A stretch of 51,823 bases of DNA from a virus, in IMG/VR virus record IMGVR_UViG_3300043409_001754, positions 1 to 51,823 of that record. The stretch is one strand, 5' to 3'. Made by a program: the position numbers and the translations under genes. Under the pieces are notes generated by a model. The model did not search any database and had not been told where the DNA came from. It saw nothing but the letters and a program-made list of their open reading frames with translations. Within the stretch, counting starts at the first letter, position 1. Every line of letters begins with the position of its first letter. Positions 33,099-40,084 of this stretch are shown here, piece by piece.

Positions 33099-33356
33099 AT
33101 GAAACCAATATCATTTCCAGACCAAAATTTAATTTTTGGAGAAAACCAAGAGGGAGTACAACCATTGCCAGCACACTTCAATAAAGAATTAGGTGTTGTT
33201 ACAACTCTTTGGGAGTTAGATGAGCAAGAGGTAGAATCTATCAAAACCACAAGATGTATAATGTTAGAGTGTTGGACTTTTGGAGGAAAATTACAACCTG
33301 TAAATTTATTAACAATTCACGAAAACGAAAGGAGACAAAAAGATGGAGAATCATAA
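33099..33356 (+). CDS. hypothetical phage protein (85 aa)
   Basis: An 85-aa protein with the recurring phage pattern PLPAHF...GVVTTLWELDEQEVESIKTT...LECWTFGG...PVNL, seen in small proteins of many phages and of unknown role. ATG 33099 lies 4 bases after the remnant's late stop. It overlaps the exonuclease gene by 14 bases. Confidence 0.55.
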   Translation: MKPISFPDQNLIFGENQEGVQPLPAHFNKELGVVTTLWELDEQEVESIKTTRCIMLECWTFGGKLQPVNLLTIHENERRQKDGES

Positions 33357-33927
33357 AAAATACTGTATGTTTTTAGATTTAGAAACAGGTGGTTTTAGTC
33401 CAACTAAAAACGCAATTTGTGAATTAGCTTTTTTGGTCTTTGACACAGAAACCAATGAAATTGTTTCAAGAAGTTGCCTAAAAATAAAACCCTACATTAG
33501 GGATTTTTCAACAAAAGAACTTGCCTCATATAAAGATGATGCTATGGCTATAAATGGTCACAATCTTGATGATTTAAGAAAAAATGGATTAGATGTTAAA
33601 AACGTTTTTGATATTTTTGATAAGGTTATTCAAAAATTTAATATTGTATTTTTTGGTGGGCATAATCTTGAAAGTTTTGACTTGAAATTTATAGATAACA
33701 TTTATAAAATTTATCTAAAAAAAGATTTTAAATTTAGTCAAGCTATATGTACTATGAAAATGGCAAAGAAAAGATTAAAATTGAAATCTTATAGTCTTGA
33801 ATCCTTATGCAAACACTTTAATTACACACCAGAAAGTTATCACAACGCAATGAGTGATACTCAATCAAGCTATGAAATTTTCCAACTTTTAAGAAATATT
33901 CAAATTTTACCAGAGCATACAAAATGA
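33343..33927 (+). CDS. DnaQ-like 3'-5' exonuclease, first copy
   Basis: A 194-aa DEDDh exonuclease. ExoI FLDLETGGF (D and E, residues 10-18), ExoII around GGHNLESFDLKF, and ExoIII YHNAMSDTQSSY with His and Asp. It should trim 3' ends of DNA or RNA. The phage shows no polymerase of its own in this window, so it may act in recombination, host DNA degradation or proofreading in trans. It is followed by a micro-gene in ATGA overlap and then by a second DnaQ-like gene. Confidence 0.8.
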   Translation: MENHKKYCMFLDLETGGFSPTKNAICELAFLVFDTETNEIVSRSCLKIKPYIRDFSTKELASYKDDAMAINGHNLDDLRKNGLDVKNVFDIFDKVIQKFNIVFFGGHNLESFDLKFIDNIYKIYLKKDFKFSQAICTMKMAKKRLKLKSYSLESLCKHFNYTPESYHNAMSDTQSSYEIFQLLRNIQILPEHTK

Positions 33928-34089: not shown

Positions 34090-34659
34090 ATGGAAAAAAT
34101 ATTTTATTTTGACGTAGAAACTACTTCATTAGACCCCAAAAGCGGAGGTATTCACCAAATTGGAATTATCATTGAAATTGATGGTAAAACAAAAGAACGA
34201 CTTGTTTTTAATTTAGCACCATTCCAAGGCGACATTGTTACAGATGAAGCCCTTGAAGTGGCAGGAGTTACGAGATTGCAAATAATGGCATACAAAAACC
34301 CTCTTGATATTTACGAAGAAATTGTGAGCCTACTAAACAAGTATGTTAATAAATTTGACAAACAAGACAAAATGTTTTTATGTGGTTTTAATAACCAGAA
34401 GTTTGACAATGAGTTTCTTAGAAACTTTTTTAAGAAGTGTGGTGATAATTATTTTGGTTCATACTTTTGGGCAAATAGTCTTGATATTCTTGTTTTAGCT
34501 ACACTTTCACTTATGAAAGTCAGAAAAAGAATGGATGATTTTAAACTCAAAACAGTTTGTAAGCAATTAGGTATTGAAGTAGATGAAGAAAAATTACACG
34601 ATGCTTTGTATGATATTGACTTAACAAGAGCTTGTTTATATAAGATAAGAGGAATATGA
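34090..34659 (+). CDS. DnaQ-like 3'-5' exonuclease, second copy
   Basis: A 189-aa DEDDh exonuclease: YFDVETTSLDP (residues 5-15), NNQKFDNEFL in the middle for ExoII, and KLHDALYDIDLT for ExoIII. It is clearly diverged from the copy at 33343, so it is not a recent duplication. Two adjacent exonucleases of one fold in a phage suggest different substrates. It is coupled to the next gene by ATGA. Confidence 0.8.
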   Translation: MEKIFYFDVETTSLDPKSGGIHQIGIIIEIDGKTKERLVFNLAPFQGDIVTDEALEVAGVTRLQIMAYKNPLDIYEEIVSLLNKYVNKFDKQDKMFLCGFNNQKFDNEFLRNFFKKCGDNYFGSYFWANSLDILVLATLSLMKVRKRMDDFKLKTVCKQLGIEVDEEKLHDALYDIDLTRACLYKIRGI

Positions 34660-36210: not shown

Positions 36211-37047
36211 ATGAAAAATACAAAAATTGAGTGGTGCGACCATACTGTTAATTTATGGATTGGCTGTACAAAAGTTCACACAGGTTGTGATAATTGTTAC
36301 GCTGAAAAGCAATCAATCAGATGGGGAAATAATGTTTGGGGCAACAATGTAGAACGCAAGCAGGTTTTAAGTGCATTCAAAACACTTGACACTTTGCAAA
36401 AACAAGCCAAATCACAAAATCAATTTCAAAGTGTATTTGTTCAATCATTGAGTGATATTTTTGAAAAATCAATGCCTGTTTTTTCGCCAAGAAAGGAAAT
36501 TTGTGAATATGAAAATACTGGACAAATTAGAAATGAATTTTTTACCAGAATAAATCAAGGTAGATACCCAAACTTGATATTCTTGTTACTTACAAAAAGA
36601 CCATCTAATATTGGAAGTTTTATTCCTCAAAATTGGTTAGAAATACCACCAAGAAATGTATGGTTTGGTTGTAGTATTTCAGACCAAAAAACAGCAAAAG
36701 ATTTAATTCCTAAATTTTCGAGATTTTTTTCAATCCCACACTTTAATATATTTTTAAGTATTGAGCCACAAGTTGAAAGAGTTGATTTACGAGAATCTTT
36801 TTCTATAAATTTTGGAGAAACTATTTTTGAGCAAAGGCTTATTGATATGGTTGATTGGGTTATTTGTGGAGGAGAAAGCGGACACCATAAAAGACCTTTT
36901 GAATTAGCTTGGGCTTATGACTTAAAAAGTCAATGTGAAAGATTTGGTATTCCATTTTTCTTTAAGCAAATTGATAAAATAAAGCCTATTCCAGAGGATA
37001 TAATGATTAGAGAGTTTCCAATAAATATACCAAGATACGCCAGTTAG
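36211..37047 (+). CDS. DUF5131 / phage Gp37-Gp68-like protein (radical-SAM-like)
   Basis: A 278-aa protein. The N-terminus reads KIEWCDHTVNLWIGC, then TGCDNCYAEKQSIRWG, which is the DUF5131 signature with Cys arranged as C-x(6)-C-x2-C, the likely 4Fe-4S/SAM site. Further family features are FLLLTKRP, WFGCSI and WVICGGESGHHKRPFEL. These proteins are common in phages and are proposed radical-SAM relatives with no proven reaction. It is the last backbone gene before the cassette array. Confidence 0.75.
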   Translation: MKNTKIEWCDHTVNLWIGCTKVHTGCDNCYAEKQSIRWGNNVWGNNVERKQVLSAFKTLDTLQKQAKSQNQFQSVFVQSLSDIFEKSMPVFSPRKEICEYENTGQIRNEFFTRINQGRYPNLIFLLLTKRPSNIGSFIPQNWLEIPPRNVWFGCSISDQKTAKDLIPKFSRFFSIPHFNIFLSIEPQVERVDLRESFSINFGETIFEQRLIDMVDWVICGGESGHHKRPFELAWAYDLKSQCERFGIPFFFKQIDKIKPIPEDIMIREFPINIPRYAS

Positions 37048-37124
37048 AATACAGCGAAAAAGAACGCTGAATGTTTATGCAGGATAGGGAATAGTATTCC
37101 GTCTGCCATATTGCAAAACCCAAT
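37048..37124. other. left junction of the cassette array, partial hairpin site
   Basis: This non-coding stretch holds CAGCG/CGCTG and a hairpin at about 37073-37107 (GCAG, GGAAT, ATTCC, CTGC, extended by TATG/CATA). It then runs GCAAAACCC to the first GTT box. Unlike the later sites there is no left arm complementary to GCAAAACCC, so it looks like half of a site left at the insertion point. Confidence 0.5.
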
Positions 37125-37168
37125 GTTATATGCTGTGCTTTTTATTTGGGTATCAAAATTTATTTAAA

Positions 37169-37636
37169 ATGGAAATTCAAGATTATTTAACAAGTTTAGT
37201 TCAGCAAGCAAGAAATAAGCGTTTTGCTGATTCCCCACAATTGTCATTAGGAGAATTAATTAATGAAATTGAAAAATGCGGTTTACAAAAAAATGACGGT
37301 GAAGATAAAGAAGTTTGTTATGACTTTGGCACTGCGATACCGACTGATTTAGATAGTTATCGTGGTTCATATAATGAACTGGCACTTGGCTATAAACTTA
37401 CTGGATATGATAACGATGCGGAGCATTTAAAAGATGTTAAAGCAAAAGACTTATTACAGCATTTAAAAGAAGCTATTGGCAAGGAATATACAGGTTGGAA
37501 AGGTGGTGAATACACAATGTCAGAAGATACGCCTGTATGGGTTGCAAATTCAGGCAATGCAGGAAGTACAGCTATTTTAGGAGTTTTAGATGATGGCTGG
37601 CGTTTAATATTATTAACAGCGTATGTTCAATTTTAG
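37169..37636 (+). CDS. cassette 1 protein (155 aa), conserved unknown
   Basis: ATG 37169 is preferred; an in-frame ATG at 37130 would use the recombination box itself. The C-terminal text DLDSYRGSYNELALGYK...LLQHLKEAIGKEYTGWKGGEYTM...DTPVWVANSGNAGSTAI matches a protein pattern that recurs in phages and plasmids, with unknown function. It has no promoter of its own visible within the unit. The stop is 9 bases before the closing inverted repeat. Confidence 0.65.
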   Translation: MEIQDYLTSLVQQARNKRFADSPQLSLGELINEIEKCGLQKNDGEDKEVCYDFGTAIPTDLDSYRGSYNELALGYKLTGYDNDAEHLKDVKAKDLLQHLKEAIGKEYTGWKGGEYTMSEDTPVWVANSGNAGSTAILGVLDDGWRLILLTAYVQF

Positions 37637-37652
37637 GGTGTCGCTGCATAGC

Positions 37653-37744
37653 ATATAACGTCAATATTTGCGAAGAACGGCAACGAAACAAACTGTGAAT
37701 TTCAAGTTAATGTCAGCCGTTTTTTGCAAATATATTGTTCTATG
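37653..37744 (+). repeat. attC-like site 1 (between cassettes 1 and 2)
   Basis: ATATAACG, then AATATTTGC, internal loop GAAG, then AACGGC. A 34-base terminal loop follows, then GCCGTT, loop TTTT, GCAAATAT, and GTTCTATG. The two-block arms with a fixed unpaired middle mirror the R/L boxes and central spacer of integron attC sites. Confidence 0.7.
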
Positions 37745-37857
37745 AATACGGATTTTTTGGAATAAAATACTAAATGGGAAAAGGGCGTTGCAGACGAAAA
37801 ACGCATTTCCTCGGTGGGTTATCAGAAGTCCAAATGATGCCCACCAATTTTTAAATT
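37745..37857. other. long structured leader in cassette 2
   Basis: This 113-base non-coding stretch before the cassette 2 gene holds a nested stem (GGAAA..GCGTT with AACGC.TTTCC, 37777-37810) and a second stem GGTGGG/CCCACC (37813-37845). It could be a regulatory leader or the remains of another site from a lost cassette. No ORF was found here. Confidence 0.45.
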
Positions 37858-38217
37858 ATGAAAATAAAACAGCGAAGGAATTTAAAAAAAGCCGAAAAAC
37901 TTGCAAAAAAAATTTGGGAGTTTAAAGATGAAGTAATAAGTGAATATTCCAATTTTGACAATATAATACTTCAATCTGTAAAGCAAAAGTGTGGATATAT
38001 AGGAGTAATTAATTTTCTAATTCAGTTTGTTTTGCCAAATGAAATATTTGGATTTGAAGGTAAAATAGTTCGATTAGTTGAATTTATTGATTCATTAACA
38101 GAAAGAGATATTTTAATTATTAAGAAAATGAAAAATGAAACTGGTTATGCTAATTTCAAACTAAATTACAATATGTGGGATGGATTTTTGAGAACTTCTC
38201 GTAAAGGCTCATTCTAA
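37858..38217 (+). CDS. cassette 2 protein (119 aa), unknown
   Basis: A basic, mostly helical protein with Lys-rich N-terminus (KIKQRRNLKKAEKLAKKIW) and no membrane segment. No family is recognised. It ends 7 bases before the closing CATAGAAC box. Its composition (very A-rich, many Lys/Ile) is similar to the backbone, so base content does not mark it as foreign. Confidence 0.55.
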   Translation: MKIKQRRNLKKAEKLAKKIWEFKDEVISEYSNFDNIILQSVKQKCGYIGVINFLIQFVLPNEIFGFEGKIVRLVEFIDSLTERDILIIKKMKNETGYANFKLNYNMWDGFLRTSRKGSF

Positions 38218-38224
38218 CCGTTTT

Positions 38225-38358
38225 CATAGAACGTTGAAGCATTGGCGAAGGCAGGGAATAGTAGCACTTCTGTTCAATTACTTACCGATGCTCAATAGGA
38301 TTGCAAAAGTTCAAAATTAGTACGTCAGCCCTGCTTTTGCCAATGCAATGTTACAGGC
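38225..38358 (+). repeat. attC-like site 2 (between cassettes 2 and 3)
   Basis: CATAGAACG, then GCATTGGC (38239), internal loop GAAG, then GCAGGG. A 72-base terminal part follows, then CCCTGC (38329), loop TTTT, GCCAATGC, and GTTACAGGC. Both arm blocks pair perfectly. The GAAG/TTTT internal loop is identical to that of site 1 although the arm sequences differ. Confidence 0.75.
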
Positions 38359-38407
38359 AGGTGTGGGTTGATTAGGAATAAATTGTCAAACTTAAAAAAC
38401 ATAAAAA

Positions 38408-39181
38408 ATGGAATTAGTCTTTTTATCAAATGGTCAAGCCTGTTACCTTAAAGAAAAAATAGGCAGTAAGTATATCGTAAACAAAATATTTGAGTACGAA
38501 GATGAAGAAAATGGTTGGCAAGAAGTACAGGATGCAAACGATATTGTAGTTGATGCTGTATTTAACAAACCACCTATTGAAAAAATAGATGTTGAAATTA
38601 AAGAATTGCAACTTAAAAAGAATCAAACACTTTCCGAAATTTCAGAACTTGAAAGCAAAAAAAGAACAGTTAAAAATGAAGTTGAGCAAATAACTAAAAC
38701 GCAAGTTTCTAATAGCAAATTTATTATTAACAGAAGTGATTTGATAAATGCAAAAACTTTGGCTTTGTTTATGAAAGACCGACCCCTTCCAAAATTGATG
38801 GATAGTAGTAATAAGTCTTTTAAAGGCTTAAAAGTTTCATTGACTGTTGAAATATCAACTGGACTTGAAAGAAGTTGGGGCTATTCTTTGTATTATGATT
38901 ACGATAGAAGTAGCGATTACTTGTGTGAAAAATATGGCATACTAATAAACCCAACACAAGAAGAAATAGATGCTATGATAGTTAAAAGACTTTCAGAGTT
39001 TAAATTTAGCGACCATTGGATGAAAAGTGTTGATGATAAATATTTGGTGGCAGAACAGTTGACACAAAAAAATGAATATTTAGAAAGTGAAAGAGTTAAA
39101 GAAAAAGAGAAATTAGAAAAACAGATACTGGAAACGCAAGAAAAACTTTCAAAGTTGCAGAGTGCTAACACTTGCCTGTAA
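38408..39181 (+). CDS. cassette 3 protein (257 aa), coiled-coil
   Basis: A 257-aa protein. The N-terminal beta-rich domain includes LSNGQACYLKEKIGSKYIVNK-type text. A coiled coil follows (residues about 62-100), then a middle domain with GLERSWGYSLYYDYDR, and a second coiled coil at the C-terminus. No enzymatic motif is recognised. The stop codon TAA (39179-39181) lies inside the closing box GCCTGTAAC, as happens in compact integron cassettes. Confidence 0.6.
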   Translation: MELVFLSNGQACYLKEKIGSKYIVNKIFEYEDEENGWQEVQDANDIVVDAVFNKPPIEKIDVEIKELQLKKNQTLSEISELESKKRTVKNEVEQITKTQVSNSKFIINRSDLINAKTLALFMKDRPLPKLMDSSNKSFKGLKVSLTVEISTGLERSWGYSLYYDYDRSSDYLCEKYGILINPTQEEIDAMIVKRLSEFKFSDHWMKSVDDKYLVAEQLTQKNEYLESERVKEKEKLEKQILETQEKLSKLQSANTCL

Positions 39182-39309
39182 CGTTTTGGGGCTTTATGAA
39201 GTTGGGGAAATCGAAGCTCAAATGTTCGTTTCAGCACAAAAGCCAAATTGAAAAACTGATGTTGAGGGTTAGCACTTCCGCCCCAATTTCTTAAAACCCT
39301 TGTTAGGCG
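39174..39309 (+). repeat. attC-like site 3 (between cassettes 3 and 4)
   Basis: GCCTGTAACG, then TTGGGGC (39186), a TTTAT bulge, GAAGT, a long terminal part, ACTTC (39274), one unpaired C, GCCCCAA, and GTTAGGCG (39302). The arms pair perfectly in two blocks with asymmetric internal loops. Its right box is the only one that fits GTTRRRY. Confidence 0.75.
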
Positions 39310-39364
39310 TTTGTGCCTTTCTCGGTAGGAAGTTAAAATTTGTAAACAATTAAAATTAAATAAT

Positions 39365-39979
39365 ATGCCAACAGGTTACACAGCAGGAATTTTAGATGGT
39401 AAGATTACCACATTTCCACAATTTGCAAAACAATGTATGAGAGCTTTCGGGGCTACAATTCATATGAGAGATGACGATATGGATGCCGAAATTACTTCAA
39501 GAACTCCAAGCGATTACTATTCAAAAGAAATTGAAAAAGCAAAGCAACTATTAAAAGATGCCGAAACTTTATCAGATGAAGTAATAGTAAAAAACCGAAA
39601 AGAAGAACTTGAAAAAAGCAAAGAATATCATTTAAAAGCTATTGCAAAAGCAAAAGTTGATATTAAAAATATGAATGATATTTTAAAAGATGTAAGAAAG
39701 TGGCAACCACCAACAGCAGACCATACTGGAATAAAAGATTTTATGATTGACCAAATTGAAAAAACAATTGACTTTGATTGTAAAACTAAAAACCACGATG
39801 AAGGACTTGCAAAAATAGAACTTGATTTATTAACCTTAAATGCTTCTGAAATTAGAAAAGATATGATTGCAAAGGCAAAAAAGGACTTTGAGTATAACAC
39901 TAAAAATTACAATGAAGATGTCGAAAGATGCGATAAGTCAAATCAATGGGTGTCGGATTTTGTAGGGTCGTTGGCATAA
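39365..39979 (+). CDS. cassette 4 protein (204 aa), conserved phage-type
   Basis: The N-terminus MPTGYTAGILDGKITTF, FAKQCMRAFGA, HMRDDD is a recognisable conserved block of a protein that occurs in phages and bacterial genomes, with unknown function. The rest is a long Lys/Glu-rich coiled coil, ending QWVSDFVGSLA. The stop directly adjoins the closing CGCCTAAC box. Confidence 0.65.
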   Translation: MPTGYTAGILDGKITTFPQFAKQCMRAFGATIHMRDDDMDAEITSRTPSDYYSKEIEKAKQLLKDAETLSDEVIVKNRKEELEKSKEYHLKAIAKAKVDIKNMNDILKDVRKWQPPTADHTGIKDFMIDQIEKTIDFDCKTKNHDEGLAKIELDLLTLNASEIRKDMIAKAKKDFEYNTKNYNEDVERCDKSNQWVSDFVGSLA

Positions 39980-40084
39980 CGCCTAACGAGTATATAGACG
40001 AAATAACACATAGTTAAAATGCCCTCATTATCAATTACTTATGCCTATATTTATTGTATATCTTTTGCCCAAAACTATGTATTT
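39980..40084 (+). repeat. attC-like site 4, degenerate right end of the array
   Basis: It starts with CGCCTAACG. A two-block stem is possible: AAAT plus ACATAGTT (40001-40015, with an AAC bulge) pairing with AACTATGT plus ATTT (40073-40084). No GTT box matching the cassette end follows, so the right half seems lost or fused to phage backbone. Confidence 0.5.

Follow-up and report, generated by a model that had tools for sequence, protein, structure and literature searches.

The phage genome analyzed here carries an array of gene cassettes that we consider likely to be a non-autonomous platform, on which recombination would be performed by an integron-like integrase of the host that lacks the I2 insert specific to classic integron integrases (IntI). 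This platform would comprise four cassettes, a candidate attI and three attC-like sites that are intact, and the phage itself encodes no integron-type integrase. The sites are those of a cassette system that is widespread in the chromosomes of Bacteroidota, and the cognate enzyme of that system appears to be a XerA-like tyrosine recombinase that has no I2 insert and is encoded beside attI. The window (the whole stretch of 51,823 nucleotides that was analyzed, a contig from an uncultivated assembly) is a Bacteroidota-type phage of about 51 kb and a near-complete genome, with genes for terminase, portal, tape measure, endolysin, replication proteins and a Holliday junction resolvase.

Four one-gene cassettes with self-matching ends

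The four one-gene cassettes lie in tandem at positions 37125-39987, with all genes in the phage's direction. Each cassette opens with GTT plus seven bases and closes with a box that is the exact reverse complement (box pairs 37125/37659, 37737/38232, 38350/39182 and 39302/39987), and the boxes match within each cassette and not between neighbors.

37125-37659, + strand: cassette 1, opening box GTTATATGCT, closing box AGCATATAAC
37169-37636, + strand: cassette 1 gene, phrog_12889 family, no assigned function
37737-38232, + strand: cassette 2, opening box GTTCTATGAA
37858-38217, + strand: cassette 2 gene, 119 aa, no family
38350-39182, + strand: cassette 3, opening box GTTACAGGCA
38408-39181, + strand: cassette 3 gene, 257 aa, coiled-coil-like stretch
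39302-39987, + strand: cassette 4, opening box GTTAGGCGTT
39365-39979, + strand: cassette 4 gene, phrog_8905 family

Only seven box pairs of at least 10 bp exist in the whole window, four of which are the cassette pairs. When hairpin arms and matching boxes were searched for together, the chain attC1-attC2-attC3 was recovered, and such chains were found in none of 40 Markov-shuffled windows. These results bear out an earlier note on this DNA, made from the sequence alone, which had described four one-gene units with self-matching GTT.../...AAC ends. Two of its details need correction: the boxes, given there as 8-14 bases with three perfect and one mismatched, are self-matching but comprise 10 perfect bases in all four cases followed by a mismatch at base 11, and the stop codons, which do lie near the closing box, are 1-23 rather than 0-16 bases from its end.

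For the cassette 1 protein a good fold was predicted (pLDDT 87), with structural matches only to uncharacterized viral proteins and no match in the PDB. Relatives of the cassette 3 protein were found in none of the collections searched, and the family of the cassette 4 protein (phrog_8905) is elsewhere an ordinary phage gene. The array is flanked by a DUF5131 gene (ending at 37047) on the left and by a run of small phage genes (from 40019) on the right. No IntI-type integrase is present in the phage (no TIGR02249 match), nor was a XerA-like integrase recognized among the phage ORFs, those following the candidate attI being short phage genes.

attC-like sites and covariance models

Three attC-like sites separate the four cassettes, and a probable decayed site precedes them:

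37059-37131, + strand: attC0, probable decayed attC, with R'' ..AAAGAAC, spacer GCTGAA, L' GTCTGCC..AAAACCCAAT and R' GTTATAT
37653-37743, + strand: attC1, short-loop form (R3 28.7 bits, E 1.5e-6, in an unfiltered search of the 3.5 kb region; z −2.2/−3.0)
38226-38356, + strand: attC2 (R3 71.5 bits, E 1.4e-16)
39176-39308, + strand: attC3 (R3 103.3 bits, E 6.5e-25)

The window sites have the features of attC sites in classic integrons (an AAC/GTT core, paired L arms and a variable loop). With three attC-like sites and no IntI, the array also falls within the definition of a CALIN, namely at least two attC sites within a few kb and no integron integrase nearby. The hairpins that had been proposed between the units are clear at the three inner junctions; the left junction looks decayed, and at the right one a search for an attC4 hairpin after cassette 4 (39988 onwards) did not find the second arm of an attC. 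attC0 is a weak assignment, placed by sequence similarity to the arms of attC2 and attC3 and detected by no covariance model. Both outer junctions of the array are thus imperfect and decayed-looking, so the array may now be inert. An IMG/VR search with the 22-base site consensus gave no exact match, and an Rfam search of the window returned nothing.

The plain folding energy of attC3 was not below that of shuffled sequences, and we therefore used covariation models instead. Model R1, which represents IntI arrays, was built from 35 of 38 bacterial attC sites from 20 regions, 19 of them in Bacteroidota genomes with IntI; 89% of the cells in its alignment are paired and covariation is strong. Applied to the window, R1 found only attC3 (18.4 bits) and missed attC1 and attC2, and in P12002L, a phage with published CALIN attC sites, it found one site (23.7 bits). 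The window sites thus resemble attC but differ in type from the sites of IntI arrays. Model R2 was built from the three window sites and the four sites of L072, a small viral contig whose sites are of the window's type. Its inner helix shows 95.7% pairing with 11 of 14 pairs changed on both sides, and its outer box positions pair poorly, as expected given that the two boxes of one site come from different cassettes. Only bacterial sites, 45 in number, went into model R3, in which 95.8% of inner-helix cells are paired and 16 of 17 inner pairs covary by changes on both sides. Since the R3 sites were found via R2, which contains the window sites, the R3 test is independent in sequence but not in the choice of loci.

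The AT-richness of the genome and the unremarkable folding energy of attC3 would fit inverted repeats that arose by chance, or transcription terminators, between genes that have nothing to do with each other. Such an origin is nevertheless extremely improbable, given that the chain of sites was absent from all 40 shuffles and that attC3 has an R3 E-value of 6.5e-25, and it is refuted by the R3 model together with the covariation across the 45 bacterial sites.

A more serious alternative, though still quite improbable in our judgment, is an ordinary CALIN, in which a host integron would have supplied the phage with classic attC cassettes of the IntI type. Phage CALINs have been published for Polaribacter phage P12002L, TJE1 and PH101 (Qi et al. 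2023, PMC9892861), so the presence of cassettes in a phage is not new in itself. As in the window, these are integrase-less clusters of attC cassettes, found there in virulent phages of which one is a Bacteroidota phage; they follow the same attC logic, and IntI1 recombined five of the six phage attC sites tested (PMC9892861). In contrast to the window, no integrase source or attI is proposed for them in the parts of that paper considered here. The models also set the window apart: R1 scores fall far below those of R3 (18.4 against 103.3 bits for attC3; attC2 missed against 71.5; attC1 missed), whereas P12002L is weak for both models (R1 23.7 and R3 23.3 bits, at different places).

Matching of cassette ends

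Among 124 bacterial cassettes, the two end boxes match at bases 1-9 at frequencies of 0.98-1.0, at base 10 at 0.69 and at base 11 at only 0.01, and match again at bases 12-15 (0.82-0.90) before falling to background beyond. Random pairing of ends from different cassettes, used as a control, reaches the acceptance level in 3.7% of cases. The Bacteroidota-type end rule is thus a match over about 10 bases, a mismatch at base 11 that is obligatory, and then four further matches. In IntI-adjacent arrays, by comparison, there is a match at base 11 in 71% and matching from base 12 on is close to background, which is a further point against an ordinary CALIN. Each of the four window cassettes shows the 10 matches as well as the base-11 mismatch. 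In the second matching block, cassettes 1-3 match at a further 3-4 bases, and in cassette 4 one base has to be skipped to obtain such a match; with this qualification for cassette 4, the window belongs to the group defined by R3-type sites and the box rule.

Pairing of cassette ends upon circularization is the logic of integrons. Because the ends match within cassettes but vary freely between them, selection appears to act on the pairing, which is formed only in the circular cassette. There is good support for the proposal of the earlier note that cassettes were inserted one by one into the phage by an integrase acting in trans.

Cassette arrays of Bacteroidota and the associated integrase

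R2 matches occur in 156 of 390 Bacteroidota genomes, at up to 110 bits, and the matched loci are long cassette arrays with self-matching ends. One genome has identical cassettes of 606 and 1211 bp in two distant arrays on the same contig (L148 and L149, at about 0.71 and 5.19 Mb), which fits mobility.

None of 16 site-rich genomes has an IntI above the family cut-off (TIGR02249), and all 16 have tyrosine recombinases that match parts of the IntI profile. The array-adjacent ones match both ends of the profile and skip its middle: the catalytic motifs HxLRHS...GH...Y are present, the IntI insert (about 25-35 residues) is missing and there is an N-terminal extension not found in IntI or Xer. In a small tree with long branches, these integrases form a group next to IntI and separate from Xer, with support of 86/84 for the group and 100/98 for the group plus IntI. 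Three of them score 225.5, 229.2 and 219.2 with the XerA model NF040815, for which the family cut-off is 220. In INPHARED phages, a search for integrases of the array type found nothing above 36% identity.

Across 385 genomes, 87 have both enzyme and sites, 69 sites only, 22 the enzyme only and 207 neither (odds ratio 11.9, p 3e-23), and 35 of the 37 strong enzyme matches are in site-bearing genomes. The XerA-like integrase was below the threshold used in 69 of the 156 site-positive genomes, part of which may reflect assembly gaps or divergence. IntI is present in 107 of 395 Bacteroidota genomes, which would allow for an ordinary CALIN, but it is depleted in site-positive genomes (odds ratio 0.47, p 0.0025). 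In all of 24 loci, which were chosen for having enzyme and sites on the same contig, a distance of 0.5-6.3 kb separates the enzyme from the closest site detected, and the enzyme is always on the same side. The enzyme is on the strand opposite to the site model in 22 of these 24 loci, as are 114 of 122 bacterial cassette genes, and the enzyme therefore runs in the direction of the genes.

A candidate attI

The association with the integrase extends to an attI-like site. At 18 of 20 bacterial loci, the cassette nearest the integrase has its closing box 70-127 nt (mostly 103-107) away from the integrase stop. A conserved attI-like core, AACTTGTTTATATG and variants, follows this box, with an inverted repeat. 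Since no attC4 hairpin was found, an attI was considered for the right end of the phage array:

39985-40090, + strand: candidate attI, AACGAGTATATAGACGAAAT, then inverted repeat ACATAGTT/AACTATGT

AACGAGTATATAGACGAAAT follows the closing box of cassette 4 and is close to a bacterial attI, AACTAGTATATAGGCGAAAC, at locus L221. By position-specific score the candidate ranks third of 2250 AAC-anchored places; the match is moderate and lies at the predicted place. This is suggestive rather than proof, and the window thus probably carries an attI without an integrase. Given that no XerA-like integrase was recognized about 105 nt from this site, the window would represent a sub-platform rather than a complete unit.

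Related cassettes and gene orientation

Homologs of the cassette 1 gene are found in cassettes of both phages (L008 and L072) and bacteria (L011 and L010). L072 shares only this gene with the window (60% identical); its other genes differ, including those of two neighboring complete cassettes. L011 is a gammaproteobacterial MAG whose genome has a full IntI. L010 (165-1375) is a deltaproteobacterial MAG with phage terminase genes, in which the homolog is in a cassette of its own (GTTAAAATT..AATTTTAAC) that abuts a truncated IntI lacking about the first 65 residues. The phage contig L008 (5200-8200) has the homolog in an array of several cassettes with classic attC sites. Viral contig L109 (780-2830) has about eight very short cassettes (about 200 bp) with attC-like sites that partly overlap reading frames, followed by a cassette 1 homolog and a generic tyrosine recombinase. 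The cassette 1 family also occurs in crAss-like and other phage loci, there as an ordinary gene without attC.

In the window (four of four) and in L072, the cassette genes run with the site model, opposite to most bacterial cassettes (114:8). Genes in L008, L109 and P12002L also run with the site model (R1), as do those of the bacterial L011. L115 was grouped with the window, L072, L008 and L109 as having phage cassettes along the site-model direction. It is possible that transcription in the phage comes into the array from the end opposite attI, so that only flipped genes are expressed.

Gene orientation bears on whether the array might be a relic, i.e. part of a host array that was acquired in a single event of illegitimate or homologous recombination and has since been passed on like any other phage genes. 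The imperfect outer junctions, the lack of an integron integrase in the phage and the uniform gene direction are all compatible with a relic, yet we regard it as unlikely: the boxes and three attC sites are intact, and the reversed orientation relative to the sites indicates that the window array was not simply copied from a host array of the usual kind.

Comparison with known systems

The window and the bacterial arrays resemble classic integrons in having one-gene cassettes, hairpin attC sites with conserved AAC/GTT ends and matching ends within cassettes, and the bacterial arrays also in that an attI-like site lies next to a tyrosine recombinase placed beside IntI in the tree. They differ in several respects. 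The array recombinase lacks the additional domain (I2 insert) of IntI and has an extra N-terminal stretch, its gene runs in the direction of the cassette genes with its stop facing attI, and the end rule includes the mismatch at base 11 and a second matching block. The phage, moreover, has no integron integrase in cis, i.e. no IntI with the additional (I2) domain. The array-linked enzymes are close to the XerA type (NCBIfam NF040815, 'site-specific tyrosine recombinase/integron integrase'), with the three tested about at the cut-off, but that model covers the core only, whereas these enzymes have the N-terminal extension and lie beside cassette arrays. Where the earlier note left a choice between an integron-like array and an undescribed system with the same logic, the evidence favors the latter, because the sites are those of a Bacteroidota system tied to a XerA-like integrase and not to IntI.

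For the phage platform, the agent is most likely a XerA-like enzyme supplied by the host. During infection or in a carrier state, attC sites folded as single strands would be the substrate of this integrase, which would insert or remove circular cassettes at the phage attI or between attC sites. The data themselves establish the structure and type of the sites, the matching of ends cassette by cassette, and the link of the bacterial arrays to this integrase and attI; that the XerA-like integrase performs the recombination and acts in trans on the phage is what we infer, as is the direction of exchange. An I2-less enzyme in this role is surprising, since acquisition of the I2 helix is thought to have given integron integrases the ability to recombine single-stranded attC sites (PMC7790495). 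Speculatively, the N-terminal extension could substitute for I2.

On balance we lean towards the view that Bacteroidota have a second integron-like system with a XerA-like, I2-less integrase, and that phages are integrase-dependent shuttles of its attI and cassettes, mostly with flipped genes. An earlier integron survey picked genes by the additional domain (PMC2426708) and IntegronFinder 2.0 reported very few complete integrons in Bacteroidota (PMC9024848), so arrays of this kind may have been missed or called CALINs. We found no description of this system in the openly accessible journal papers searched, and it may well be that the bacterial system in its entirety has not been described before. 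If it is as proposed, the existence of a common cassette system whose sister integrase lacks I2 would open the origin of integrons to direct tests. It would also bring to light a large network of gene exchange that has been hidden until now, for which phages with attI and cassettes would be natural vehicles.

Other features of the phage genome

Close relatives of the phage backbone were found in neither IMG/VR nor INPHARED, the only matches being to the terminase at about 24-27%. The DUF5131 gene left of the array (36211-37047) shows similarity, below the cut-off, to radical SAM mobile pair protein A, and two PADLOC candidate families match it as well. Possibly it is what is left of an earlier cassette; an opening box for such a 'cassette 0' was looked for upstream of the gene and not found. 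The contig ends (1-517 and 51307-51823) overlap by about 517 bp with several substitutions and one 6-base indel, as if two strains had been joined in a circular assembly. Two neighboring genes (33343-33927 and 34090-34659) both belong to a DNA polymerase exonuclease family (phrog_192) and are apparently an old duplication.
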